A DNA stretch of 59,239 bases from positions 1-59,239 of the IMG/VR virus record IMGVR_UViG_3300033153_005246; one strand, given 5' to 3'. The position numbers and the translations under genes are program-made. Below are positions 16,547 to 57,301 of this stretch, piece by piece; the stretch's first letter is position 1, and every line of letters starts with the position of its first letter. The DNA comes from a virus. The notes beneath the pieces are model-generated. The model was not told the origin of the DNA. It worked only from the letters and a program-made list of their open reading frames with translations, and did not search any database.

Positions 16547-17086
16547 TCATCTTAAATCTCCATCTCCGTTAATTACTCCCCGTTCTTTTCTATCCCATAG
16601 TTTTTCTATATTCATAGAAAGAACATCAGAAAAAGCAAAGTTCATACTGACACAGAACTTTATAATCAGAGTGTAAAGACTACTCATATAATACTCCAAC
16701 ATTTCCCTTCTGTTCTTTGTATCCGTTAATTCCCATTCATCGTCTCTGGCACATTTCTTTATAATACCAGCAATCTTTCCTGCACAAAATAGACCATCAT
16801 CTATTAGGTTGGTACCCATATTTAATGAAACTGCTTTAGAAGGTGGACGATATGGCTCATCCAAATTCTCTAATTCCACTTCATAATGGTATGAAAGAAT
16901 AGCCAGTGCATAGGTAATATCCCCCAGTTCTAACTTCAATAATCTCTCCGAATTACTTCCATGATAATGTTCTAAAAGTTCCACCAATTCATCTGTAATC
17001 TCTAATGTGCTACAAGCAATTTTCTCTTTATCCGACTTGTATGTGAGTGTCCTTTTACACTTCCTTTGATAATGCTCCCAATCCAA
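16547..17086 (-). CDS. MazG-like nucleotide pyrophosphohydrolase
   Basis: The 179-residue protein starts at TTG with AAGGAG upstream. KLELGDITYALAILSYHYE provides a MazG-type metal-binding helix, a later helix is present, and the C-terminal NIEKLWDRKERGV matches the usual 'N-x-x-KL..R' tail of phage MazG proteins. MazG enzymes hydrolyse NTPs/dNTPs to monophosphates; phage versions may adjust dNTP pools or alarmone signalling. One canonical Glu of the EExxE motif is replaced, so activity is not certain. Confidence 0.65.
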   Translation of the reverse strand: MDWEHYQRKCKRTLTYKSDKEKIACSTLEITDELVELLEHYHGSNSERLLKLELGDITYALAILSYHYEVELENLDEPYRPPSKAVSLNMGTNLIDDGLFCAGKIAGIIKKCARDDEWELTDTKNRREMLEYYMSSLYTLIIKFCVSMNFAFSDVLSMNIEKLWDRKERGVINGDGDLR

Positions 17087-17097
17087 TATTTACTCCT

Positions 17098-17865
17098 TTA
17101 ATCATATTTTTGTGAATATAGCCATATTAATTCTTTCTTCCCCAACGAATCCTGCCTTACTGATAAAGATGACAAAGGGTAATATTCCAAGTCTTTAAAT
17201 CTCTCTACTATTTCTGTATCACATATTATAAAATGATATGCTTTTGGATTCAATTTTTCAAAATTATATTCTATTGCACCACAATCTCCAGTACCTCCGT
17301 AACTTTTTATAGCTATGTTTGCCTTTTTCAGATCTTTAGTGAACTTAAAATCCTTGTGTTCAGCAGGAAGTACTACTTTCTTCCTCTTTGTAACTGTCCT
17401 CTCCCAGATCTGAAAAACACATTTTGCTTTCATAGATTCAGGATAAAAACTTCCAATAGGAATATCTTCCTGGTATTTTAGTACAAAATCCATAGATAGT
17501 CTGTTCTGCACGGACACTCTTTTAAATGTCCGTGGTAAAATAAAAGCAATAGTATCGGCAAAGGAAGAGGCGTGATTAAAAAATCTCACTGCTTCTTTCC
17601 CTCCTGTTCCGAAAGGTGGATTCCCCACAAGTAAATGCTTTCCTTTAGGAATAGAGTATTCATAAAAATCCTGCTTTATACCCGCATCTTCTTCTGGGTA
17701 TAAATCTAACCCGATGGTTCTTTTTGGAAGTATGGTTAAAAAAGAACCATTACCACATGAAGGTTCTATGATCGTTTCAAATCCAGCTACATCTACTAAT
17801 TCTGATAATACATCAACACAATATTTAGCTATTTCTGGTTTGGTATAAAATTTATCATTTTCCAT
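17098..17865 (-). CDS. N6-adenine DNA methyltransferase
   Basis: A 255-residue class I methyltransferase. The SAM site IIEPSCGNGSFL (about 32-43) and catalytic LLVGNPPFGTGG (about 77-88) mark an N6-adenine enzyme, followed by FFNHASSFADTIAFILPRTF. There is no linked restriction nuclease, so the likely role is to mark phage DNA against host restriction or to regulate transcription or packaging. It is one of four DNA methyltransferases in the window. Confidence 0.8.
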   Translation of the reverse strand: MENDKFYTKPEIAKYCVDVLSELVDVAGFETIIEPSCGNGSFLTILPKRTIGLDLYPEEDAGIKQDFYEYSIPKGKHLLVGNPPFGTGGKEAVRFFNHASSFADTIAFILPRTFKRVSVQNRLSMDFVLKYQEDIPIGSFYPESMKAKCVFQIWERTVTKRKKVVLPAEHKDFKFTKDLKKANIAIKSYGGTGDCGAIEYNFEKLNPKAYHFIICDTEIVERFKDLEYYPLSSLSVRQDSLGKKELIWLYSQKYD

Positions 17866-17866
17866 A

Positions 17867-18349
17867 CTATATTAGATAGTCTCTTATTGTATTTGTGTCA
17901 ATAAAAGAAGTAAATTCTTTAACAAAGCCTTTAGCAACAGTACCATGATCAGGCATATTTGTGATGTTTTCCCAAACAACTTTACTTGACAATGCATATA
18001 GTTTAAGAGTTCCTTCGATGTAATTCATATGTACCAAAATATAAGTCTGAATATCCTCATCTGGGGTTACTTGTTTCAATCGTGCAATATCATCGTCTTT
18101 TACTGAAACTTTTACTTTGTAGTTCCCAAACTCTTCTGTGTAACCATCTCCTCCTTTTATTTCCATCGACGCTAATTCTTCGGCTACTAATTCTTTAATA
18201 AAAACCCCATATGCTTGTGAGGGCATATGGTATATCGAAGCAATTATTTTTTCTTCCAAAGAAGATGTCGTATTTTTAATTGTGTCTTTTATTTCTCCTC
18301 CCTGTGTCCTTCTGCGTTTAATTTCATTCATCATTTCTTTACTATCCAT
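17867..18349 (-). CDS. Unknown phage protein, first gene after a promoter
   Basis: The start at MDSKEMMNEIK has AAGGAG and lies about 15 bases downstream of the predicted transcription start of the promoter at 18370-18398. The 160-residue product has a charged helical N-terminus and an alpha/beta core, with no known motif. The methyltransferase gene follows directly. Confidence 0.6.
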   Translation of the reverse strand: MDSKEMMNEIKRRRTQGGEIKDTIKNTTSSLEEKIIASIYHMPSQAYGVFIKELVAEELASMEIKGGDGYTEEFGNYKVKVSVKDDDIARLKQVTPDEDIQTYILVHMNYIEGTLKLYALSSKVVWENITNMPDHGTVAKGFVKEFTSFIDTNTIRDYLI

Positions 18350-18369: not shown

Positions 18370-18398
18370 AGTATAACACGGTTTCCTGAATTTGTCAA
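18370..18398 (-). promoter_or_regulatory. Sigma70-type promoter
   Basis: On the - strand: -35 TTGACA (18393-18398), 17-bp spacer, -10 TATACT (18370-18375). It lies between tRNA-Cys and the gene at 17867-18349 and should drive the latter and the methyltransferase/MazG genes. Confidence 0.8.
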
Positions 18399-18411: not shown

Positions 18412-18484
18412 ACTCATGAGTGGGAATCGAACCCACGAATAAATGATTTGCAATCATTTGCCTTAACCACTTGGCTACCATGAG
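18412..18484 (-). tRNA. tRNA-Cys (anticodon GCA)
   Basis: The cloverleaf is complete: 7-bp acceptor (CTCATGG with TCATGAG, one G-U), D arm GCC/GGC, anticodon arm AATGA/TCATT with loop TTGCAAA (anticodon GCA), and T arm GTGGG-TTCGATT-CCCAC. The base after the acceptor is U, the usual Cys discriminator. CCA is not encoded, so it must be added; the phage has its own CCA-adding enzyme at 35992-37326. Confidence 0.9.
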
Positions 18485-18517: not shown

Positions 18518-18719
18518 TAGGAATGGTAGGATTTTAACCTACATTGGTTTTAGGCTTTACATATAGTTTACAAGTCTGCCCTAATTGTTCTCAGACTAAA
18601 GGCTTACCAAAAACCTTGCATTAGAATTATACTAACTTTTGTTAGAAACTTAATCACCCAGATTTTTACTGTATTTTTAGACCACACTGGTGATGTATTT
18701 GACATTTCACCACATTCCT
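18518..18719 (-). ncRNA. Candidate tRNA-like structured RNA (about 200 nt)
   Basis: A gene-free stretch directly downstream of a strong promoter. On the - strand the 5' end AGGAATG (18719-18713) pairs perfectly with CATTCCT (18525-18519), flush against a perfect T-arm-like hairpin (GTAGG, loop TTAAAAT, CCTAC; 18542-18526) and followed by A. Inside are further helices: GGTG/CACC with ATGT/ACAT near the 5' end, CTAAC-AAAA-GTTAG, AGTCTG/CAGACT, and a 9-bp helix (GGTTTTTGG/CCTAAAACC, one mismatch) three bases before the T arm. No canonical D arm or anticodon arm exists. It recalls the tRNA-like end of tmRNA but is shorter, and no convincing tag ORF is seen. Confidence 0.4.
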
Positions 18720-18735
18720 TACCCATTCTATACTA

Positions 18736-18764
18736 AGTATAACACGGAATTCGTTATTTGTCAA
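18736..18764 (-). promoter_or_regulatory. Sigma70-type promoter for the RNA genes
   Basis: On the - strand: -35 TTGACA (18759-18764), 17-bp spacer, -10 TATACT (18736-18741). Start of transcription near 18729, about ten bases before the 5' acceptor strand of the tRNA-like RNA and ahead of tRNA-Cys. No protein gene lies between it and the next promoter, so it appears dedicated to RNA genes. Confidence 0.85.
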
Positions 18765-18799: not shown

Positions 18800-21046
18800 T
18801 TAATCACATTTAGAATATCCACAAATACAAGATAAACACCCACCCTGATACACTAAAGCAGTATTACCACATTCAGGACAGACCGCAGATTTCTTTACTT
18901 CTTCCCCCTCTTCAATATAACCTTTCAATACTCTAGCCAAACCACGAGAAAATGAAGCAAAGTTATCCTCTTTCACAAGTGTATCTACAATAAATTGTAA
19001 AGGAGTAACACTATTCTGGTGACGGAGCGCCATTGAGATGATTCGAGTCATGGAACCATATTCTTTTTCAGCACCTTCTGTTAAATCCTCTGTAATGGTT
19101 TTACCCTTAAGATCCAATAGTTTATAATGTCCTTTTTTTGCTTTTACAATTTTGCCAACTTTATCTTTAAAATCTTTAATTGGATGGGTTACAAATACTT
19201 CATATACTTTCCCGTCAAGAATACCTACAAGTATGAGAAGCTTTTCTCCCTTTGAAGAGATGTTATACACATCACAGGGCAACGAGTTTGGACGTTTAGG
19301 GGCAATCCTATCTGAAGACACTTCTTTGCTTTTAGCTTCATTATAATTATCCTCAGTGATGAGAACACCTGTTTTGCTTCCTTCCCTATAGACGGTTACT
19401 CCTTTTGCCTCACTTTTCCATGCTTCCATATAAATAGATTCTATATCTTCTACTGTAGCATCTTTTTTAAGGTTATACGTGACAGAAACAGCAGAATCTA
19501 TGTATTTTTGAATGACACTAATCAATCGTATTTTTGAATGATTATTAATAGTGTGTGCTGTTTTCCATATTTCTGGATCTAATTCATCAGCATTTTTCTT
19601 ATTTACTTCTAATCCCTTATTTCTAAGTTCTTGCACTACTAAATCATTAAAAATAAACCATTCTTTCCAATCTCCTGTAGTACTCCTTTCTCTCCTAACA
19701 TAATATTTTGCAAAGATAGGTTCAATACCAGATCCTCCAGACTCAACGATAATAGACACTGAACCATTGGGTGCTAGTGTTGTTTTGCATACATGTGCTT
19801 GGAAATCCAAAATTTTATCTGTAATTATTTCTTCAGATAACAACATTTGCACAAAAGGAGATGACTTATACTTTTCTTTATCATAAGAAGGAAAAGACAT
19901 CCCATCATAATTTTTAGCAATATCATGAGATGTTTTATATGCTTGTCCGGTTAAATTGCTAAATATCAATTTTGCTTTTTCTACTGCTGTTGGAGAATCG
20001 TACGGTACACCTTCTCTTATCAGATAATCAGCAAATCCTGTCACCCCTAATCCTATTCTTGGTATCTCTTTTAATTTCTTAAGTTGGTCTTCAGAAGGAC
20101 TTCTTTGTTCTATTATTTCTTCTCTTCTAAAAGCATCTAAAACAAATACCATAAAATCAGTCAACTCAATAAAACCTCTATACCTATACTCATGAAATTT
20201 AGATAGATTCACAGAGGATAATAAACATACATTATGCCCATCCAACACCTGCTCCGAGCATCCGTTGACGTTATCAATTGGATACCCTAGCCGATCTGAA
20301 TTGCTGTACTTTTTGGATGTATCCCAAAATAAAAGCCCTGGGTCCCCAGACTTGTGTGCATGTTCCGCTATCATTCGAAATAATTTTCTTGCTGAGATTG
20401 TTTTTCTAATCGTTTCATATTCATTTTCATAGAAAAATTCCCAGTCTATATCATCTTCAACCGATTGCATAAACTCATTTGAAACTTTTATAGATATGTT
20501 TGCTGTCTCTAATACTCCTTCTTCATCTTTACACTTGATGAACAATGGAATATCGGGATGTCGAATATCTAAAGAAATTAAAGAAGCACCTCTTCTACCA
20601 TCTTGTGCAATTTCTTTAAGTATGCCATCAAAAGTCCTCATAAAGGACACAGGTCCTGTTGATGTGTTTGATGAGTTATGGACAACCGCCCCTGAAGGTC
20701 GTAGAAGAGAAACATCAATCCCTTCACCTTGACCCACCGCTGCAAATTTTCCCCACCAATACCAAGCATCTGCAATAGATTCTAAATTATCTTTTGGAGT
20801 ATATAATGTTGTGCAGTTTACAGCAGACACATTCTTATTAGGATTCATAGCACTTCTGAAAAGTCCTCCGGCAAACCCAACCCATTTCTTACTACCATAT
20901 TCAATAGCTTTCCCTTTTAAATGAGGATAATATTTTGTAACTACAGCATCTATTCTTTTTAAAGGATCAATAAGTTTCTTATCTATTTCCAGCATATATT
21001 TTGCTCTGTACACCTTCTCTGCCATTTCTGAATTAAATTCCAACAT
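18800..21046 (-). CDS. nrdJ: Class II (adenosylcobalamin-dependent) ribonucleotide reductase
   Basis: The 748-residue protein has the RNR barrel with radical-site NGCSEQ (N261, C263, E265) and the redox Cys pair C78 (VNCTTL) and C274 (HNVCLLSSVNLSK). APNGSVSIIVESGGSGIEPIFA follows, and the protein ends in a Cys-rich tail (CPECG...CLSCICGYSKC) as in NrdJ. There is no separate NrdB or NrdD partner. It reduces ribonucleotides to deoxyribonucleotides using host adenosylcobalamin, independent of oxygen. The thioredoxin gene seven bases upstream is a plausible electron donor. The start has GGGGG upstream. Confidence 0.9.
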   Translation of the reverse strand: MLEFNSEMAEKVYRAKYMLEIDKKLIDPLKRIDAVVTKYYPHLKGKAIEYGSKKWVGFAGGLFRSAMNPNKNVSAVNCTTLYTPKDNLESIADAWYWWGKFAAVGQGEGIDVSLLRPSGAVVHNSSNTSTGPVSFMRTFDGILKEIAQDGRRGASLISLDIRHPDIPLFIKCKDEEGVLETANISIKVSNEFMQSVEDDIDWEFFYENEYETIRKTISARKLFRMIAEHAHKSGDPGLLFWDTSKKYSNSDRLGYPIDNVNGCSEQVLDGHNVCLLSSVNLSKFHEYRYRGFIELTDFMVFVLDAFRREEIIEQRSPSEDQLKKLKEIPRIGLGVTGFADYLIREGVPYDSPTAVEKAKLIFSNLTGQAYKTSHDIAKNYDGMSFPSYDKEKYKSSPFVQMLLSEEIITDKILDFQAHVCKTTLAPNGSVSIIVESGGSGIEPIFAKYYVRRERSTTGDWKEWFIFNDLVVQELRNKGLEVNKKNADELDPEIWKTAHTINNHSKIRLISVIQKYIDSAVSVTYNLKKDATVEDIESIYMEAWKSEAKGVTVYREGSKTGVLITEDNYNEAKSKEVSSDRIAPKRPNSLPCDVYNISSKGEKLLILVGILDGKVYEVFVTHPIKDFKDKVGKIVKAKKGHYKLLDLKGKTITEDLTEGAEKEYGSMTRIISMALRHQNSVTPLQFIVDTLVKEDNFASFSRGLARVLKGYIEEGEEVKKSAVCPECGNTALVYQGGCLSCICGYSKCD

Positions 21047-26955: not shown

Positions 26956-27527
26956 CAAACATCCTTATAATAAATCTGGGGATATACCATTGCAATTTTA
27001 GCTTCTAATCCTTCTATACCAGAATCATTGTGTAATGTGTAATCTGGGATAATCTGATCCATTTCCTGCTCAGATGAATGTTGGTCTGTTGAAACTAATC
27101 CTTCTCTTTTTATCTTAAGAATATGTCCTCCCATTTCTTTAAGAATTTTAAATTCGTTAAGAAAACGAACATCTGATATTACTACATCTGCTCCTTTCGG
27201 TAGGCTTTCATACCAGTATTGGAATCTTTTGCACCACAGATTGTTTCCAATGATTTCATTAAAAGTTTTATTGAGAGTAGGAAAGAATTCTCTCATAGTT
27301 TCTGTTCCAAATACTTGCTGTATTTCTCTTCCACTCATACCCCATCGTTCATCTACAACTTCTTTTTGATCACCATTTATTTGGCTGTCTGACATCAAGA
27401 ATGTATCTGCTACGAAGTTCTTTATAGGAGAAGCAAATTTGTACTTCACAAATCCATGCTGTCTAATTAGATAGTCTGCGACTACATCTTTTCCTGCAAA
27501 TTTTTTACCTGTTATTCCTATGATCAT
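26955..27527 (-). CDS. Deoxynucleoside monophosphate kinase
   Basis: The 190-residue protein has a P-loop GKKFAGKD at 7-14 and the phage dNMP-kinase signature SGREIQQVFGTETMREFF, followed by VVISDVRFLNEFKILKEMGG. It phosphorylates dNMPs (T4 gp1 class), turning nucleotides from ThyX or DNA breakdown into dNDPs. The homing endonuclease gene upstream overlaps it by four bases. Confidence 0.85.
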   Translation of the reverse strand: MIIGITGKKFAGKDVVADYLIRQHGFVKYKFASPIKNFVADTFLMSDSQINGDQKEVVDERWGMSGREIQQVFGTETMREFFPTLNKTFNEIIGNNLWCKRFQYWYESLPKGADVVISDVRFLNEFKILKEMGGHILKIKREGLVSTDQHSSEQEMDQIIPDYTLHNDSGIEGLEAKIAMVYPQIYYKDV

Positions 27528-28276
27528 ACTGTTTTATCCTCCTCATATCGAAACTTTTTAAAATATCTTTTCTCAGCATTTATTCGTACTTCTTTTGCTC
27601 TTTCAAAATCAGAGTAGTATCCCAAAGCAATATACTGGTTATACACTCTTATCTGTACTTGCCATTTTTTATTTCTTTTATGCCAAGAAACACCTCGTAA
27701 TCCAGAAGTGTTTGCTTTGGTATTTCCCTTATTCCATTTATTTTGAAAAGAGGAGGCTATTCTTAAATTGGTTTTTAAATTGTTTAATTTATCAGTGTCT
27801 TTATGATCTATTTCTAAATCTTCTGGTGCACCCATAATAAGTCTGTGTAAATAAACTGTTTTATTAGAATCTCTGTATCTGCTGATAACATAACCATTTT
27901 TACTTAAGTTCCAACAGAAACTTTTTACTAAATGGTAGTCTGTTTCTTCTATTTTTGTATATTCTTTTTTTAAAGTTCCTTGCTTATTATAGAAATAAAT
28001 ATATATGGTATTCCCTACTCTTTTAATTTTATTTCGCACAGTGCGGTTTAATTTAGCTTGTTCAGCCATGAAACACCCACAACTAGTTGATTTCCCAGAT
28101 AATAAACTATATCGTGAAATAGATTTCACATTCCCACAGATACATTTGCACATGTATTTCCATTTAGAAGGAGCATTTGGCTTTTTCTGTTTAGAATTGG
28201 AATCTGCCTCAATAATTTCCCATCTACCAAATTTCTCTCCTTGTAGTAAATATTTTGGATGTTTATACTGTCTCAT
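27524..28276 (-). CDS. HNH-AP2 homing endonuclease, copy 1
   Basis: A 250-residue protein in three parts. The N-terminal zinc-type module starts KHPKYLLQGEKFGRWEII and contains CKCICGN...SCGC. The central HNH nuclease has LHRLIMGAPEDLEIDHKD and KTNLRIASSFQN. The C-terminal AP2 DNA-binding domain has GLRGVSWHKRNKKWQVQI and GYYSDFERAKE. The HNH His and Asn/Asp residues are present, so it looks active. It is wedged between dNMP kinase and the RNA ligase with overlaps at both ends. Two paralogues lie at 29396-30148 and 56525-57301. Confidence 0.85.
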   Translation of the reverse strand: MRQYKHPKYLLQGEKFGRWEIIEADSNSKQKKPNAPSKWKYMCKCICGNVKSISRYSLLSGKSTSCGCFMAEQAKLNRTVRNKIKRVGNTIYIYFYNKQGTLKKEYTKIEETDYHLVKSFCWNLSKNGYVISRYRDSNKTVYLHRLIMGAPEDLEIDHKDTDKLNNLKTNLRIASSFQNKWNKGNTKANTSGLRGVSWHKRNKKWQVQIRVYNQYIALGYYSDFERAKEVRINAEKRYFKKFRYEEDKTV

Positions 28277-29381
28277 CTTTCTTACTCCATTTAATCATAT
28301 ACTCAGGAGATTTTGCTTTAAATCCAATATTTTGATCAGTCATTGATCTCCATACAAACCCTTCTCTTTTTGTATTACCAAATACTGATTTACCATTAGC
28401 ATCGGATAACACTTCTTCTATAGTATTTGGTAATAAAATATTCCAAGCATAAACAGGAACTGTTTCAAATCCATATTCATCACTAAATCCTATCATTTCA
28501 TAATAATCTAAAGTTCTCCCAGTGGCACTATCACTTACTTTAAATACAAATAATCGTGGAGTTTTAAACTTATATATATTTTTCTGAACACCTTCTTTAC
28601 AAATTTCCCCATGAATTGCGTATTTAATTCCGGTATCCTTATAAGCTTTTCTGAGTATTTTTTCTATTTCATACTGTTTACTTATCTGATCCCAATTACT
28701 ACCATCACCATCAAATCTCATAGCATTGTGAGAATAGAGTCTATACTCAGGATTCTTTTTGTTTCCATAAAGCATAAAACAAGAACTTTGTCCTTCCATT
28801 TTTTCTGCTTTATAGTATAGTTCTTCTGGCTTATTTTCCTTAAGCCAATTAAATACTTTTTGAACATTTGTCTCATTACTTTTCTGTATGGTATCAGGAT
28901 ATGTATTTTTAGATTTTTTCTTACCAAGAATTATATTTCTGAATACTTTATATTTTAACAAGAAGTTGGTGAATTTCCCATACTTCTTTTTGCTTGTATT
29001 AACAGATATTTCTTCGGGAGCATATTTTCTAGCACCTAATTTATCTGCTATAACTGTACCCACTTTTAATTTATGTCCATTTTGCAGTAAACTAAGAGGG
29101 AGACACAATCCTTGGCTAAAGACACCTGCCATTAACATATTTCTTATTCTAAAACCATCATAAAGAGAAGAGTAACAACGTGCTCTCAGAAACTCCAATT
29201 CTGGTCTAGGTTTTAATACTACATCATATTCTACATATATAGTGTAATCTCCAATAGTGTAATCTCCTTTAGTTACGATTACTTTCCATCCATGATCTAT
29301 TTCCGCTAATTCAATTCTGTCTTTTCCCAAAATAGGCTCCAAGCCAGTAATAACTGATATGTATACAAGATCTCTACCCAT
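28263..29381 (-). CDS. RNA ligase (Rnl5/DraRnl type)
   Basis: The 372-residue protein has an N-terminal OB-fold-like domain (1-120), a linker, and a nucleotidyltransferase domain: motif I K-MEG (K194 in YKAEKMEGQSS), IHGEICKEGVQKN, RLFVFKV, motif IV REGFVWR and motif V FKAKSPEYMIKW. An OB domain before the catalytic domain is the Deinococcus Rnl layout, which seals 3'-OH/5'-phosphate nicks in RNA. A likely task is repair of tRNAs cut by host anticodon nucleases; a kinase-phosphatase partner is not recognised in this window. Confidence 0.8.
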   Translation of the reverse strand: MGRDLVYISVITGLEPILGKDRIELAEIDHGWKVIVTKGDYTIGDYTIYVEYDVVLKPRPELEFLRARCYSSLYDGFRIRNMLMAGVFSQGLCLPLSLLQNGHKLKVGTVIADKLGARKYAPEEISVNTSKKKYGKFTNFLLKYKVFRNIILGKKKSKNTYPDTIQKSNETNVQKVFNWLKENKPEELYYKAEKMEGQSSCFMLYGNKKNPEYRLYSHNAMRFDGDGSNWDQISKQYEIEKILRKAYKDTGIKYAIHGEICKEGVQKNIYKFKTPRLFVFKVSDSATGRTLDYYEMIGFSDEYGFETVPVYAWNILLPNTIEEVLSDANGKSVFGNTKREGFVWRSMTDQNIGFKAKSPEYMIKWSKKDETV

Positions 29382-29395
29382 AATTTCTCCTCTAT

Positions 29396-30148
29396 TTAAT
29401 ATTCATTTCTACATACACTAGCAGAAAACTCTTCGTGATATCTTTTCTCAGCTAATTTTCTAGTTTCTACTGCTTTTGAAAAAGACGAGAAATATCCCAA
29501 ATGATACTGCTTTTTATTTAACACAATAAATGGCAAGCATTTATTGTTTCTACAATGCCATGTTACTCCGGTAGCACCAGAAGTATTATTTGATTGTATT
29601 TTATGATTCCTATTATTCTCTTTGCTATTACAAATCCTTAAATTTTCTTTTTTGTTATTTAATGGACTGCCATCTATATGATCTATAACTAGATTTCCAG
29701 AATAATCTAAAATAAATCTATGTATTCTTGTAATTTTTTTATTGATTGGAGCACAAACATAATCCCTATCTGTGGTGTGCCAACAATAATCTTTTACTTT
29801 AGAGTAATCTTCTTTATCTATAACTATCTTTTTTTGAGAATCGTTACTACTTACTATAAGTATTGAATCTTCTAATGTTATAATTTTATTTTTCTTTTTG
29901 TTGGCTTCTTTTGTCTTTTTTATTGCAAGACACCCACAACTCTTTACATGTCCTCTACATATGGTATTTTTAGACAAGGTAACAATATTCCCACAAACAC
30001 ATTCACATGTATATTTCCAACTTGATGGTGGGATCATTTTTCCATTTATAAACTTAGATTGTTTGTCAAGATTAATAACAGTTAAACAATTAAATACCAT
30101 TCCCGAAGATAGATATTTAGGATACTTGCTACAAGATACCTCTCTCAT
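29396..30148 (-). CDS. HNH-AP2 homing endonuclease, copy 2
   Basis: The 250-residue paralogue has the same three-part build: CSKYPKYLSSGMVFNCLTVI, a zinc-type CECVCGN...SCGC, HNH core IHRFILDYSGNLVIDHID and KENLRICNSKEN, and a C-terminal AP2 domain with GATGVTWHCRNNKCLPFI and GYFSSFSKAVE. It flanks the RNA ligase on the side opposite copy 1. Intact reading frame and AGGA start site suggest activity. Confidence 0.85.
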   Translation of the reverse strand: MREVSCSKYPKYLSSGMVFNCLTVINLDKQSKFINGKMIPPSSWKYTCECVCGNIVTLSKNTICRGHVKSCGCLAIKKTKEANKKKNKIITLEDSILIVSSNDSQKKIVIDKEDYSKVKDYCWHTTDRDYVCAPINKKITRIHRFILDYSGNLVIDHIDGSPLNNKKENLRICNSKENNRNHKIQSNNTSGATGVTWHCRNNKCLPFIVLNKKQYHLGYFSSFSKAVETRKLAEKRYHEEFSASVCRNEY

Positions 30149-34206: not shown

Positions 34207-35030
34207 CCTTCCACCTTAATATTTAATTCATTTAGATACTTATCAAATACAGATTTTCTATCTTTATTCATAGTAAAAGTATAAGTAAAAGTAATATTTT
34301 CTTTAGGTAAAGGTTTATCTATTTCCTTATAATCTACAGTATTTATATCTTCTACCCAATATAATCTATCACCACGATCTTGTTTTGAGGACATTATTTC
34401 AGCTGTAATTGTGACTTCATAAAACTTTTTACCAATCTTAACGATAACCAATTCAGTGTCTGTAAAATACCCTTGCCCACACTCAAAATAGTCATCATCC
34501 CAAGGATAATCCTTGAATTTTTCTGGGCATTTTAACCATTCTGGATCTTCAATAACCCCATAATCTATTGGAAGATACTCTTCCATACCAATATCTTCTT
34601 TTGGAATTACAATGTCATCAATTCTGTCCTGCTCATCTTTTTTGGTTTTATATTCAGTATAAATTTCTTCTAATTCTTTAATATCCAAATCCTCTAATTT
34701 TTCAGAATAGTGTTCTCTTTCATTATAATTCCCAAGAGATCTAATATCTAAGATAATATTTTCTTTTGCATCTTTGAGTGTTTTCACGTTTTTTGAAATA
34801 TCTTCTGCGCCTAAATTGATATACATTTCGCCACAATCTTTACATGCCCATTTATTTAATTCTCCTATTACTTGAATTAAAGCCACCTCTCCCGAACATT
34901 CTTTTAAAAGTCTGCCACAATTTTGACATTTACTTTCTTTTACTAATGTTCTAGTTTTGAGCCATAAATCTGTTTTAAACATATCTGTTCTCACACATGT
35001 AACTTTTTCTTTATTCCATTTTTGTTTCAT
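34203..35030 (-). CDS. Zinc-finger protein of unknown function
   Basis: The 275-residue protein has CQNCGRLLKEC (about 35-45) and CKDCG (about 63-67), together a likely zinc finger, then a helical middle and an acidic beta-rich C-terminal domain. It overlaps the RlaP-like gene by four bases, so a role in RNA metabolism is possible but unproven. Confidence 0.55.
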   Translation of the reverse strand: MKQKWNKEKVTCVRTDMFKTDLWLKTRTLVKESKCQNCGRLLKECSGEVALIQVIGELNKWACKDCGEMYINLGAEDISKNVKTLKDAKENIILDIRSLGNYNEREHYSEKLEDLDIKELEEIYTEYKTKKDEQDRIDDIVIPKEDIGMEEYLPIDYGVIEDPEWLKCPEKFKDYPWDDDYFECGQGYFTDTELVIVKIGKKFYEVTITAEIMSSKQDRGDRLYWVEDINTVDYKEIDKPLPKENITFTYTFTMNKDRKSVFDKYLNELNIKVEG

Positions 35031-35995
35031 ACAACATCCTTTATAATATTATTTCTTAATATATTTACCAAATAATTATTAGCCCATTTAAAATTTGGCT
35101 TCTTTGGTAATACCGTTGTTTCTAAAGCTTTTTCACATAGTTTTGCATATGTTTCATGCATTTCCAATAATTCATCTAAATACACATCCCCATTTCTAAT
35201 TCTCATTACATTTATTTTGTGTTCTCCTGTAAATGGGAATTCTAGTTTACTTGTCTCCAATAGCATTAGACCTTCTGCCATAATTCTTATGCTATGCATA
35301 CCAAATTTTAAGTCGTAACCATGAGACAAGAAGGTATCTGTTTTTACCCTCCATCCATAGTTATCTCTTTCGCTAACTAATTTTTCATAATTAACATGAA
35401 GAGGAAGTCCTATATGGAATGATTCTGCATTACCATCTCTGTTCTTATAGAAATCTAAATTTTTATTCATCCAATCAGCATCATCCTGTGTCAGCCCATA
35501 TTTTCTATCAGTCAATTGATCTTTAGTAAATCTATTCTCTACTAATTTAATACCATTTGTTAAAGAAGCATATCTTTCTTTCTTGGTGATTAGTTTCTTT
35601 TTTTGAGAATATGCATAACTTGTAAAAGAAAAATATATTTTCTGAGAAATCAGTTTTTTATAGTTATCTATCAAAGGTTGAAATTCTGGTTCACAAATAA
35701 GTACATTCTCACCTGTGGCAAATAAAGTTTCTACAATATTTGGATTATTTCCCAAAAGCAAATGCATAAATTTAGGAAGAGAATATGATACATCATCAAT
35801 ATCATCTTTTGTATTTCTTCTATCTTCCGACGAAGATTTAGTAGAATTGTTAATCATATCCACTTTATTCAATCCCAGTAAATCCTCATCTGATGGCAGG
35901 AATACAGATAGAAAATCCTCATCTGATTCTGGAGTACTCAATCCGTACAACTGAGAGCCAACTCTTATTCTATATATTATTTTTCTTTCTTTCAT
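35027..35995 (-). CDS. RlaP-type nucleotidyltransferase (RNA-repair-associated)
   Basis: The start MKERKIIYRIR has AAAGGAG at the right distance. The 322-residue protein opens with RVGSQLYGLSTPESDEDF (about 11-28), the 'GS-x-x-YG...TP-x-SD-x-D' signature of YcgL/RlaP polymerase-beta-fold enzymes. In other genomes RlaP genes often sit near Rnl5-type RNA ligases. Here the ligase is about 6 kb away in the same arm and the CCA-adding enzyme overlaps by four bases. Its exact substrate is unknown. Confidence 0.75.
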   Translation of the reverse strand: MKERKIIYRIRVGSQLYGLSTPESDEDFLSVFLPSDEDLLGLNKVDMINNSTKSSSEDRRNTKDDIDDVSYSLPKFMHLLLGNNPNIVETLFATGENVLICEPEFQPLIDNYKKLISQKIYFSFTSYAYSQKKKLITKKERYASLTNGIKLVENRFTKDQLTDRKYGLTQDDADWMNKNLDFYKNRDGNAESFHIGLPLHVNYEKLVSERDNYGWRVKTDTFLSHGYDLKFGMHSIRIMAEGLMLLETSKLEFPFTGEHKINVMRIRNGDVYLDELLEMHETYAKLCEKALETTVLPKKPNFKWANNYLVNILRNNIIKDVV

Positions 35996-37326
35996 ATCAT
36001 CTCCTTTGCCACAGTAATAGCTTGTTCTCTGGTTGATACCACCCCATCTAATTGCAGGTTCATGATACAAGTTAAAATAGTGGTAAATCTAGGACTAGGC
36101 TCCAATCCTAATTCAATCAAATCTTTTCCACCAATAATGCATTTTGGTAATACAACTTCATTTTTCAATTCTTCTTTCATTTCATTAATTCTATTAAGCC
36201 AATCAAATTTATTTATTCCATCTTCAGGATCAGCAGGAGTAGATGCCATACTATCTGCATGTGAAACTGTGACTAGTTTATCAAAGTAGGTTTCTGCCAT
36301 AAGCCTTCTTAAAGTAGATCTTTTCATTTTGGAAGCATGTTTGATTCTCATATGATCTTTTACAATAGCTACTGCCGTATCTCTATGGGAAGAAGACGCT
36401 TTAAATCTATTCATAACTTCTTCTGCCATTTCTGCACCTATACTGGCATGTCCAAGATGTTTAATAATCCCCTCTACAATAGTACTGCATTTGGCTTTCC
36501 CAATATCATGCAATAGAGTCCCCCATAATACATCTAAATCATCTGTGTGTTTTCTGGCTTCATTTAAAGCAAGCATGGTGTGTTTCCACGTAGAACCTTC
36601 TGTGTGCCACTTAGGGGATTGGTCAACAAGAATTAGCTCATTTACTTCCTCTAAAATAATAGATAATATACCACAAGTCTTTAACAATCTAAACCCTATA
36701 CTTGGATTTCTAGCTAATAAAATCTTATCCAATTCCATTTTAACTCTTTCAAAAGAAATCTTTACAATACTAGAAGATAATTTAGTAACAGCTTGTCCTG
36801 CTGAAACTTCCAAATCAAAATCCAAAGAAACAGTAAATCTAATTGCTCTCATCATTCTAAGAGCATCTTCTTTAATCCTTTTCTCAGGATCACCGACAAA
36901 TCTAATAATGCTATTTTGAATATCGTCTACCCCACCAAAGAAATCAAACAACTTATTTTCAATAGGATCAAAAAACATAGCATTCATTGTGAAATCTCTT
37001 CTACTGGCATCTTCCTTGAGAGAAGATGTATATTTCACACTATCAGGTCTTCTTCCATCAGAAGTATCTGAATCAGTTCGTAATGTTGCTGCTTCAAACT
37101 GAAGATTATACACAATAACTATAATTACACCAAATGCTTTTCCCACAGGTAATGTATGTCCAAACAATTCTTCGACCTCATCTGGAGAAGCTGATGTGGC
37201 AACATCATAGTCTTTAGGAGTCCTTCCCATAACCTGATCTCTAACACATCCTCCTGCAAATACTGCAATATGTCCCGCATCTTGTAATTTTTTCACAATA
37301 TTTGTGGCTATTTCTTTTTCGTTCAT
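35992..37326 (-). CDS. cca: CCA-adding tRNA nucleotidyltransferase with HD domain
   Basis: The 444-residue protein has the class II signature FAGGCVRDQVMGRTPKDYDV (about 23-42), RRDFTMNAMFFDP, then EDALRMMRAIRF, and an HD domain with WKHTMLAL, LLHDIGK and the later His residues. It adds or repairs the 3'-CCA of tRNAs. Neither the phage tRNA-Cys nor the tRNA-like RNA encodes CCA, so both could be substrates. Full-length and intact. Confidence 0.9.
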   Translation of the reverse strand: MNEKEIATNIVKKLQDAGHIAVFAGGCVRDQVMGRTPKDYDVATSASPDEVEELFGHTLPVGKAFGVIIVIVYNLQFEAATLRTDSDTSDGRRPDSVKYTSSLKEDASRRDFTMNAMFFDPIENKLFDFFGGVDDIQNSIIRFVGDPEKRIKEDALRMMRAIRFTVSLDFDLEVSAGQAVTKLSSSIVKISFERVKMELDKILLARNPSIGFRLLKTCGILSIILEEVNELILVDQSPKWHTEGSTWKHTMLALNEARKHTDDLDVLWGTLLHDIGKAKCSTIVEGIIKHLGHASIGAEMAEEVMNRFKASSSHRDTAVAIVKDHMRIKHASKMKRSTLRRLMAETYFDKLVTVSHADSMASTPADPEDGINKFDWLNRINEMKEELKNEVVLPKCIIGGKDLIELGLEPSPRFTTILTCIMNLQLDGVVSTREQAITVAKEMI

Positions 37327-41257: not shown

Positions 41258-42244
41258 TTAATCTATTTTTATTCCAGAAATTTCATAAAAAATCTCAGCA
41301 TCGAAATTCGGTAAGTTTTTAACAGTTTCTTTGTCTTTAACGCTGGCATTGTCCCATGCTCTTTCAAATGCTGTTTTATAATCTAGTGTTCTTAAAAATC
41401 CTCCACAAGTTTCAATCTCATTTTTGTACTCTTCTTTCTCTTCTTCTGTTGCAGTATCATGACTGACCCATTGTGTAAGATCAAAGTATAAGAATGAGGG
41501 AAAAGAAATACTTCCCATTTCAAGTTCTGTATCTTTATTAAACAGCCTTGCGATAGGGTTTTCAGTGTTAAAGAATCCAGAGTTCCAATTTCCAGAGTTC
41601 CAATTTCCAGAGTTCCAATTTCCAGAGTTCCAATTTCCAGAGTTTCTGTTTCCAGAGTTTCTGTATCCAGAGTTGCTGTATCCAGAGTTGCTGTTTCCAG
41701 AGTTGCTGTCTCCAGAGTTGCTGTATCCAGAGTTCCTGTATCCAGAGTTGCTGTCTCCAGAGTTGCTGTTTCCAGAGTTGCTGTTTCCAGAGTTGCTGTT
41801 TCCAGAGTTGCTGTTTCCAGAGTTGCTGTTTCCAGAGTTGCTGTATCCAGAGTTGCTGTATCCAGAGTTGCTGTTTCCAGAGTTGCTGTCTCCAGAGTTG
41901 CTGTTTCCAGAGTTTCTGTCTCCAGAGTTTCTGTTTCCAGAGTTTCCAGAGCCTGTATTTATTAGACCCAACAATTCTGCCCACTCTACTTCTCTTACAA
42001 TTTTTATTTTATTTGTAGCCTGTTTATCCTTATCTGTACCAACGATATCTCCAATTAATTCTACTTCTGCAACTTTATTATCAGTATCAAAACTATAATA
42101 ATTGAAACAATCCACTGCCTTTTTACACGCATGAAACCCAACTTCACACAAAACAGGTTTTTCTTTCATTTCATAAGTTTCTCCTACTTCATATTGAAAT
42201 CCTCTACATGCCCAATCATTGTTAAAAACTTTATATGCTTTCAT
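41258..42244 (-). CDS. DUF7666-like protein with NSGxx pentapeptide repeats
   Basis: A 328-residue protein. The N-terminal domain (KAYKVFNNDWACRGFQYEVG, CEVGFHACKKAVDCF) is a common phage domain (DUF7666-like). Residues about 98-222 are roughly 25 tandem pentapeptides of the form NSG-[NDY]-[SRW], which would form a regular beta solenoid or coil. A C-terminal domain of about 100 residues follows. Pentapeptide solenoids can mimic DNA or bind proteins such as gyrase, but this N-S-G type differs from the classic A(D/N)LxX. First gene after the promoter at 42274-42302. Confidence 0.7.
   Translation of the reverse strand: MKAYKVFNNDWACRGFQYEVGETYEMKEKPVLCEVGFHACKKAVDCFNYYSFDTDNKVAEVELIGDIVGTDKDKQATNKIKIVREVEWAELLGLINTGSGNSGNRNSGDRNSGNSNSGDSNSGNSNSGYSNSGYSNSGNSNSGNSNSGNSNSGNSNSGNSNSGDSNSGYRNSGYSNSGDSNSGNSNSGYSNSGYRNSGNRNSGNWNSGNWNSGNWNSGNWNSGFFNTENPIARLFNKDTELEMGSISFPSFLYFDLTQWVSHDTATEEEKEEYKNEIETCGGFLRTLDYKTAFERAWDNASVKDKETVKNLPNFDAEIFYEISGIKID
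41576..41950 (-). repeat. Tandem 15-bp DNA repeat inside the NSG-repeat gene
   Basis: About 25 head-to-tail copies of a 15-bp unit (+ strand TCCAGAGTTGCTGTT and variants) encode the NSGxx pentapeptides. Most substitutions fall in the last two codons of each unit (S/R/W and N/D/Y). All three frames stay open, producing spurious ORFs on both strands. Such arrays expand and contract by slippage. Confidence 0.9.
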
Positions 42245-55760: not shown

Positions 55761-56532
55761 CCATTCCCTCATTCTCAATCCTATATTTTGCTACATCTAC
55801 CCATTTCCAATTAAAGAATTCCGACTTTTCTTTTTCACAATATCCATTATCAATTCCTATGAAGTTTCTATTTAAGTTTTTACAAGCTACTCCTGTAGAT
55901 CCTGATCCCATCGTACAATCCAAAACTGTATCTCTTTCATTGGTAAAAGTCTTAACAAAGAATTCCATCAATGCTACAGGCTTTTGAGTTGGATGATAAT
56001 TACTGGTTAAAATATCCCTTTGTATTTTCAGTACCTGAGTGGGGTATCTCCATCCAGTATCTTCATATTCCTTAACAGCTTTCTCATTACTGTCTGTTAA
56101 TACACCCATCTTTCCGTTCTTGACTTTATTACTTCGTTTAGCACCAGTATACTTAATCATTTGTGGATTATACGTTGGTTGTTTATTATAAAAGATGCAA
56201 CATTCTTCTACCGTTTTTCCAGCTCTTCTTTTAACTTGAGCAATATTTGTTAGTCGCTCTTTCTCCCAATAATAGCAGTATTTAAATATTTTATAATTAG
56301 AGGAAATAAGGGCAGAAGTAAATGGTTGCTGTGCTGTTAAAACAATGGCTCCATTGTGTTTATTTAATTTGTTGAATCGTTCCCACATTGGTTCAAAAGG
56401 GATAATCTTGTCCCATGCTAAATTTGTAACAGAATATGGTAGATCTGTGATAATTGCATCTACCTTAATTCCTTCTTCAATTAATTCATCCATGATTTCC
56501 AGTGTATTTCCGTGTATTAATCTGTTATTCAT
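55753..56532 (-). CDS. Beta-class adenine/N4-cytosine DNA methyltransferase
   Basis: The 259-residue protein has the catalytic motif AIITDLPYSV near the N-terminus, then HPTQKPVALMEFFVKTF and the SAM site VLDCTMGSGSTGVACK at the C-terminus. Catalytic motif before SAM motif is the permuted (beta) order typical of DpnA-type or MboII-like enzymes. The next gene, a homing endonuclease, overlaps it by eight bases. Confidence 0.85.
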   Translation of the reverse strand: MNNRLIHGNTLEIMDELIEEGIKVDAIITDLPYSVTNLAWDKIIPFEPMWERFNKLNKHNGAIVLTAQQPFTSALISSNYKIFKYCYYWEKERLTNIAQVKRRAGKTVEECCIFYNKQPTYNPQMIKYTGAKRSNKVKNGKMGVLTDSNEKAVKEYEDTGWRYPTQVLKIQRDILTSNYHPTQKPVALMEFFVKTFTNERDTVLDCTMGSGSTGVACKNLNRNFIGIDNGYCEKEKSEFFNWKWVDVAKYRIENEGMDG

Positions 56533-57301
56533 TTACACCTCTGCTATTGTCAAAAGAATATTCACCACGATACTTTTCTTCTCCTTCTTTACGAGCTTTT
56601 ATAGCATCTTCTTTGTTTGTAAATCGCCCTAAAAATCTTTGTTTATGTCCTATAGTTATACCAACTTCCCATTTATTATAAGTAGATGACCAAAATACAC
56701 CAGCTATTCCTGATGAATTATTTGTGTTTTTTTTCCTATTCATACTATTTTGTAAATGAGTGCAAATTCTTATATTATTTCTCCTATTATTCAGTCCATT
56801 GCCATCTTTATGGTCTACTACATACTCATCTATAGGAGAAAGTAGTAGTCTATGCATTAGGATATTCTTATGCTCATAATTATAAGTACTTCTAAGGGAT
56901 GCACAAGCATAAAAAGTATTACCATATTCTGTCTTAAGTACTCTCCAACAATAATTTTTAATTATTGGATAATCATTTTTATTAATAATGGTATATGTAT
57001 TTTCTTTATTAAAGAAAAATACCTTAATATAATCACCACATTCTTCTATTCTATTAGTTTTTTTACTTCTTTTAGATACAGTTTCCTTTCTGATACACCC
57101 ACAGGATTTTGGATTATTGCTAATTAATCCATGTTTGCTTGCTAAAGTAGTATTTCCACAATCACACTTACATATATATTTCCACACACTAGGAAGTATT
57201 CTTTTGCCATTTTTAATTTTACTACTCTCATCAACTTCTATTACAGTAAGTCTATTAAATTTCATTCCTTTCTTTAAATATTTAGGGTATTTCTTTTTCA
57301 T
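56525..57301 (-). CDS. HNH-AP2 homing endonuclease, copy 3
   Basis: The 258-residue paralogue of the proteins at 27524-28276 and 29396-30148: KYPKYLKKGMKFNRLTVIEV, CKCDCGN...SCGC, HNH core LMHRLLLSPIDEYVVDHKDG with NNIRICTHLQN, and AP2 domain GIAGVFWSSTYNKWEVGI plus GRFTNKEDAIK. It lies between the SNF2-type helicase and a methyltransferase. The frame is intact with a GGAG start. Confidence 0.85.
   Translation of the reverse strand: MKKKYPKYLKKGMKFNRLTVIEVDESSKIKNGKRILPSVWKYICKCDCGNTTLASKHGLISNNPKSCGCIRKETVSKRSKKTNRIEECGDYIKVFFFNKENTYTIINKNDYPIIKNYCWRVLKTEYGNTFYACASLRSTYNYEHKNILMHRLLLSPIDEYVVDHKDGNGLNNRRNNIRICTHLQNSMNRKKNTNNSSGIAGVFWSSTYNKWEVGITIGHKQRFLGRFTNKEDAIKARKEGEEKYRGEYSFDNSRGVNE

Follow-up and report, generated by a model that had tools for sequence, protein, structure and literature searches.

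A candidate tRNA-like RNA with acceptor and T-arm ends, placed between a promoter and the only tRNA gene of a phage

The window analysed here (the whole stretch of 59,239 nucleotides of the viral record IMGVR_UViG_3300033153_005246) contains the sole tRNA gene of the phage, tRNA-Cys, and just upstream of it a stretch that may encode a tRNA-like RNA; the promoter, the candidate RNA and tRNA-Cys all lie on the minus strand (Table 1). The promoter, originally predicted as near-consensus, stands up to reading on that strand, with TTGACA at 18764-18759, a 17-bp spacer and TATACT at 18741-18736, directly behind a ribonucleotide reductase (RNR) gene (18800-21046). Transcription is predicted to start at about 18729, and AGGAATG begins 9-10 nt further on, matching the spacing of about ten bases first proposed. 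A nearly identical second promoter at 18398, which has AAAGTACTTGACAAAT...CCGTGTTATACTTA in common with the first, serves the next protein gene. The original prediction also held that no protein gene separates the first promoter from tRNA-Cys, and none that is convincing was found there: the only frame, of 40 amino acids (18726-18604), was rejected as a gene, as it would be leaderless and matched no family.

Table 1. Features of the locus, with related elements of this phage and of Enterococcus phages
Feature	Position	Strand	Details
Sigma-70-type promoter	18736..18764	(-)	TTGACA-17-TATACT, extended -10 (TGT); sequence reading
Candidate mature tRNA-like RNA	18518..18719	(-)	202 nt, A1 to discriminator A73; CCA not encoded; sequence and pair probabilities
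Acceptor stem, 5' strand	18713..18719	(-)	AGGAATG; pair probability 0.89-1.0 in excised RNA
Hairpin stacked directly on acceptor	18688..18712	(-)	GGUGAaaUGU-CAAAU-ACAUCACC; pair probability up to 0.99
Interior, no significant structure	18543..18687	(-)	z +0.79 versus shuffles
Hairpin, 5 bp	18632..18645	(-)	CUAAC-AAAA-GUUAG; pair probability 0.94-0.96
T-arm	18526..18542	(-)	GTAGG-TTAAAAT-CCTAC; perfect stem; pair probability 0.95-0.96
Acceptor stem, 3' strand	18519..18525	(-)	CATTCCT; 7 bp with AGGAATG; exactly 3' of T-arm
tRNA-Cys(GCA)	18412..18484	(-)	64.6 bits; 33 nt downstream of candidate RNA; CCA not encoded
CCA-adding enzyme (tRNA nucleotidyltransferase)	35992..37326	(-)	phrog_2244 5e-78, PF01743, PF12627; absent from the closest relative, G002
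Enterococcus tRNA-like RNA, phage 113	125479-125573 (L116 10147-10241)		
Enterococcus tRNA-like RNA, phiSHEF13	L111 10150-10251		

Sequence reading bears out the two elements on which the prediction was built, the 7-bp pairing of AGGAATG (18719-18713) with CATTCCT and, immediately before the latter at a distance of about 170 nt from AGGAATG, a perfect T-arm of five pairs and seven loop bases. All acceptor and T-stem pairs are perfect (12/12), and an A at 18518 follows CATTCCT. The T-loop keeps T54, T55, A58 and the G53-C61 pair, with A in place of C56. In tRNA, C56 pairs with G19 of the D-loop, so that its loss fits the absence of that partner here; neither a D arm nor an anticodon arm was recognised, again as predicted, and the hairpin at 18712-18688 was rejected as a D-arm, having neither the GG loop nor the linker. 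The acceptor pairs with a probability of 0.89-1.0 whether the RNA is excised or carries its 5' sequence, but this falls to about 0.4 once tRNA-Cys is attached downstream and alternative pairings compete, suggesting a possible role for processing between the two RNAs. The whole RNA is no more stable than its shuffles (z -0.53), and relative to shuffles the interior is less stable still (z +0.79), from which we conclude that most of the further helices drawn earlier are no better than chance; where at least three good helices had been expected in the middle, only the hairpins at 18712-18688 and 18645-18632 are firmly predicted.

The phage encodes, besides the CCA-adding enzyme, an RNA ligase (28263-29381) and an RlaP-type nucleotidyltransferase (35027-36070), together an RNA repair set. 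Elsewhere in the window, three similar proteins are scattered at 27524-28276, 29396-30148 and 56525-57301, by eye resembling HNH homing endonucleases, and the protein at 41258-42244 carries about 20 tandem NSG repeats, each followed by two variable residues.

DNA comparison with eight related virus records yielded no homologue of the candidate RNA, and neither did a search of viral_contigs with the acceptor/T-arm pattern, where eight matches to AGGAATG-N-T-arm-CATTCCT were put down to chance, with one to four of five T-stem pairs and no tRNA nearby. The closest relative is G002 (RNR 61%, RecA 79%), which runs colinear with the window over about 5 to 59 kb. Missing between its homologues of 16547-17086 and of the RNR are the RNA, tRNA-Cys and genes 17098-18349, and G002 also lacks the CCA-adding enzyme, RNA ligase and RlaP of the window. 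G001, found together with G002 by RNR and RecA alignments, is likewise without the locus. Peptide patterns from the adjacent protein, the RNR and the DNA polymerase found no close relatives, and L060, a contig whose RecA is the same, breaks off about 2.6 kb before it would reach the RNA. When G001 and G002 were scanned strictly for the plan, the only matches were in apparent protein-coding sequence, apart from one genuine tRNA-Met. Three look-alikes were set aside: a stem preceding the tRNA-Trp gene of G002 (GGGATAG/CTATTCC, 79 nt), which is alike but has a poor T-arm and a z of only -1.4; a 164-nt match in G004 (L065) inside a protein-like reading frame; and a 211-nt match in Bacillus phage PJN02 overlapping two ordinary tRNAs. 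These records hold other features of note. On the minus strand of L059 (G002), the spacer separating tRNA-Trp from tRNA-Leu (2152-1676, about 480 nt) and the one separating tRNA-Leu from tRNA-Gln (about 130 nt) are apparently noncoding; neither spacer has an Rfam match, and they may hold another large phage RNA. An insert of about 310 residues that resembles an intein interrupts the RNR of G001 (L003 6018-9215) near the cysteine corresponding to residue 263 of the window RNR, and G003 has a tRNA with a CTA (suppressor) anticodon (L064 12850-12921).

By its plan, the closest known system is T4 species 1 RNA (rnaC, also RNA C; NC_000866 70908-71046, 139 nt), to which, as far as sequences can tell, there is no demonstrable homology. 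In a 2022 study of the T4 transcriptome, rnaC and rnaD were described as RNAs whose functions were not yet known (PMC9697503). The annotated 3' end of rnaC reads CCGGG-UUCGAAU-CCCGG-CGUUUCG, and its 5' CGAUUCG pairs with CGUUUCG with two U-U exceptions. Comparison of eight phages (T4 and seven homologues) confirmed an acceptor-like stem and T-arm, with compensatory changes in each helix, enclosing an insert that has neither a D nor an anticodon arm; acceptor pair 3-70 varies from A-U to G-C, and one T-stem pair takes the forms G-C, U-A and A-U. The covariation score was reached by none of 500 shuffles, a result that relatedness alone can give. The candidate RNA likewise has an acceptor-like stem and T-arm closing an insert that lacks both arms, and the two RNAs have in common a seven-position acceptor-like stem joined straight to the T-arm, a large insert in place of the D and anticodon arms, and a helix stacked directly on the acceptor. 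T4 species 1 RNA is a stable phage RNA from a tRNA transcription unit, and the candidate RNA adjoins tRNA-Cys. They differ in length (139 versus 202 nt) and in the acceptor, which is perfect in the candidate and has two U-U mismatches in rnaC; rnaC is strongly folded (z -4.6 versus shuffles), with a hairpin beside its T-arm, whereas the candidate is not, and it sits within a tRNA array whereas the candidate heads its unit. A covariance model, R1, built from the eight rnaC homologues had no match in the window to E 10, and its weak matches in G003 and G005 were rejected as ordinary tRNAs. The RNA had been put forward as undescribed, which holds for its sequence, with no Rfam or homologue match, but not for its plan; since that plan is already known from T4, we would regard the candidate as an unrelated second example rather than a new principle.

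A further comparison is offered by Enterococcus phages, 31 records of which have a non-decoding tRNA-like RNA of 95-102 nt between tRNA-Arg and tRNA-Val, missed by ARAGORN and by the Rfam tRNA model. It keeps the acceptor, a D-like arm, a long variable arm and the T-arm, without a 7-nt anticodon loop. Like the candidate RNA it is non-decoding, adjoins tRNA genes and retains acceptor and T-arm; unlike the candidate it is only 95-102 nt long and has the D-like and long variable arms. The corresponding covariance model, R2, scores the candidate RNA at 12.2 bits (E 1.4), weaker than many ordinary tRNAs. In Bacillus phage PJN02 (L112 6878-6922), a minimal acceptor and T-arm with no other arms lies between tRNAs and scores 18 bits with the tRNA model.

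The covariance search with tmRNA, tRNA and intron models by which the prediction was to be checked was run, and no Rfam family fits the candidate RNA. As a tRNA it is matched by neither ARAGORN nor RF00005, the best Rfam piece scoring 13.7 bits against a cut-off of 29. YrlA, a bacterial Y RNA (RF02553), resembles it in being non-decoding and carrying a tRNA-like module, but RF02553 has no match at the candidate even at E 10 and matches tRNA-Cys only, at 13.1 bits and below its cut-off of 69. GOLLD and ROOL are large phage RNAs near tRNA islands with an unknown role (PMC12286853). They differ from the candidate in being several hundred nucleotides long, ornate and without tRNA-like ends, and Rfam finds neither at the locus. 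Two classes named in the original prediction, a minimal tmRNA and a tRNA carrying an odd intron, would account for an acceptor and T-arm enclosing a large insert, an arrangement that tmRNA indeed shares. Nonetheless, no Rfam tmRNA, group I or group II intron model matches to E 10, and ARAGORN at default settings reports neither kind. Compared with tmRNA, the candidate is about half the size and lacks the D-loop motif and any plausible tag frame. Alanyl-tRNA synthetase needs G-U at pair 3-70, which is G-C here. No anticodon-loop intron compatible with the AGGAATG/CATTCCT acceptor was found by ARAGORN, whose calls under very relaxed settings leave that acceptor aside, and none of 1552 single-block excisions restores a tRNA. 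Both classes thus seem to us very improbable indeed.

How easily might chance alone produce such an arrangement? A loose form of the plan (a perfect 5-bp T-stem, a TTNNANN loop and a perfect 7-bp acceptor within 300 nt) is expected 0.18 times per strand in random 59-kb sequence, or about 0.37 times per window, and was seen twice, the other copy at 25470-25388; the plan alone, found by reading the whole window, is therefore weak evidence. This leaves some room for the view that the tRNA-Cys transcript simply has an untranslated leader of the usual kind, where a hairpin and a 7-mer far from it mimic T-arm and acceptor, a reading also in keeping with the unstructured interior, the lack of conservation among the relatives compared, and the folds that compete when tRNA-Cys is attached. 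What makes the plan far rarer, though, is its location between the promoter and a tRNA encoded on its own strand, together with G53-C61: when random 212-nt stretches of the locus composition were simulated and the plan plus G53-C61 was demanded, it was present in none of 120,000, and the eight matches to a looser pattern in viral_contigs lacked the perfect T-stem and the nearby tRNA. The plan is thus very unlikely to arise by chance at this spot, and we consider a leader of this kind possible but unlikely. A defunct tRNA gene, now decaying after an insertion replaced or broke up its middle, might be expected beside a real tRNA, and such non-canonical genes are known from other phage tRNA arrays; against it, the failure of every single excision to give back a tRNA, and the perfect state of all acceptor and T-stem pairs when the other arms are gone, which is disfavoured under neutral decay, make it rather doubtful. 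The RNA might instead be a decoy, a possibility raised in the original prediction for the CCA-adding enzyme and host nucleases: produced abundantly, it would tie up the CCA-adding enzyme, RNase P or the defence nucleases with which a host cuts tRNA. Its tRNA-like ends without decoding arms would suit such a task, and the RNA repair and CCA enzymes occur in this phage and not in the relative without the RNA, but lacking an anticodon loop it would be no bait for anticodon nucleases, and we find this quite improbable.

We lean, only just beyond even, towards a real, non-decoding phage RNA capped by tRNA-like ends, and read it best as the first member of a two-RNA unit with tRNA-Cys. What speaks for this is the perfect pairing of the plan and its location, with a near-consensus promoter that serves no protein gene on one side and, on that strand, a good tRNA gene on the other, besides the CCA-adding enzyme, RNA ligase and RlaP of the phage and the existence of non-decoding RNAs with an acceptor and T-arm in T4 and Enterococcus phages; against it stand the lack of a homologue in the records searched, a fold no better than that of shuffles, the acceptor probability of about 0.4 with tRNA-Cys attached, and the absence of the locus from G002. 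The original claim of a tRNA-like RNA transcribed from a promoter of its own is partly upheld. Because acceptor/T-arm minihelices are substrates of RNase P and of CCA-adding enzymes, the RNA is probably matured by RNase P and given a CCA tail: RNase P, reading the stacked acceptor/T-arm helix, would cut 5' of A1 (18719), host nucleases would trim the 3' side, and one of two CCA-adding enzymes, that of the phage or that of the host, would attach CCA to A73 (18518). The phage enzyme likely makes the 3' ends of both the candidate RNA and tRNA-Cys. As to its biological role, we infer that the tRNA-like cap would make the ends of the RNA and shield it from exonucleases and that the middle would be the working part, perhaps in the manner of T4 species 1 RNA; judging from the predicted folding, the middle would be too weakly structured for a ribozyme or tmRNA role. 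Alternatively, the RNA might act just by occupying tRNA-binding enzymes.

One may speculate more broadly that non-decoding RNAs of acceptor and T-arm only are common in phage tRNA units, having arisen independently in T4, in the Enterococcus phages and here, and that they share a task, for instance to load or occupy the CCA-adding enzyme, RNase P or host defences directed at tRNA, but we hold this generalisation to be decidedly unlikely. More could be sought by searching phage tRNA units for an acceptor and T-arm without a cloverleaf. If our favoured reading of a real RNA with tRNA-like ends is true, this phage, with its own CCA-adding enzyme, has a second, sequence-unrelated RNA with the end plan of T4 species 1 RNA, which would suggest that stable phage RNAs have come convergently to be capped by the acceptor/T-arm helix.
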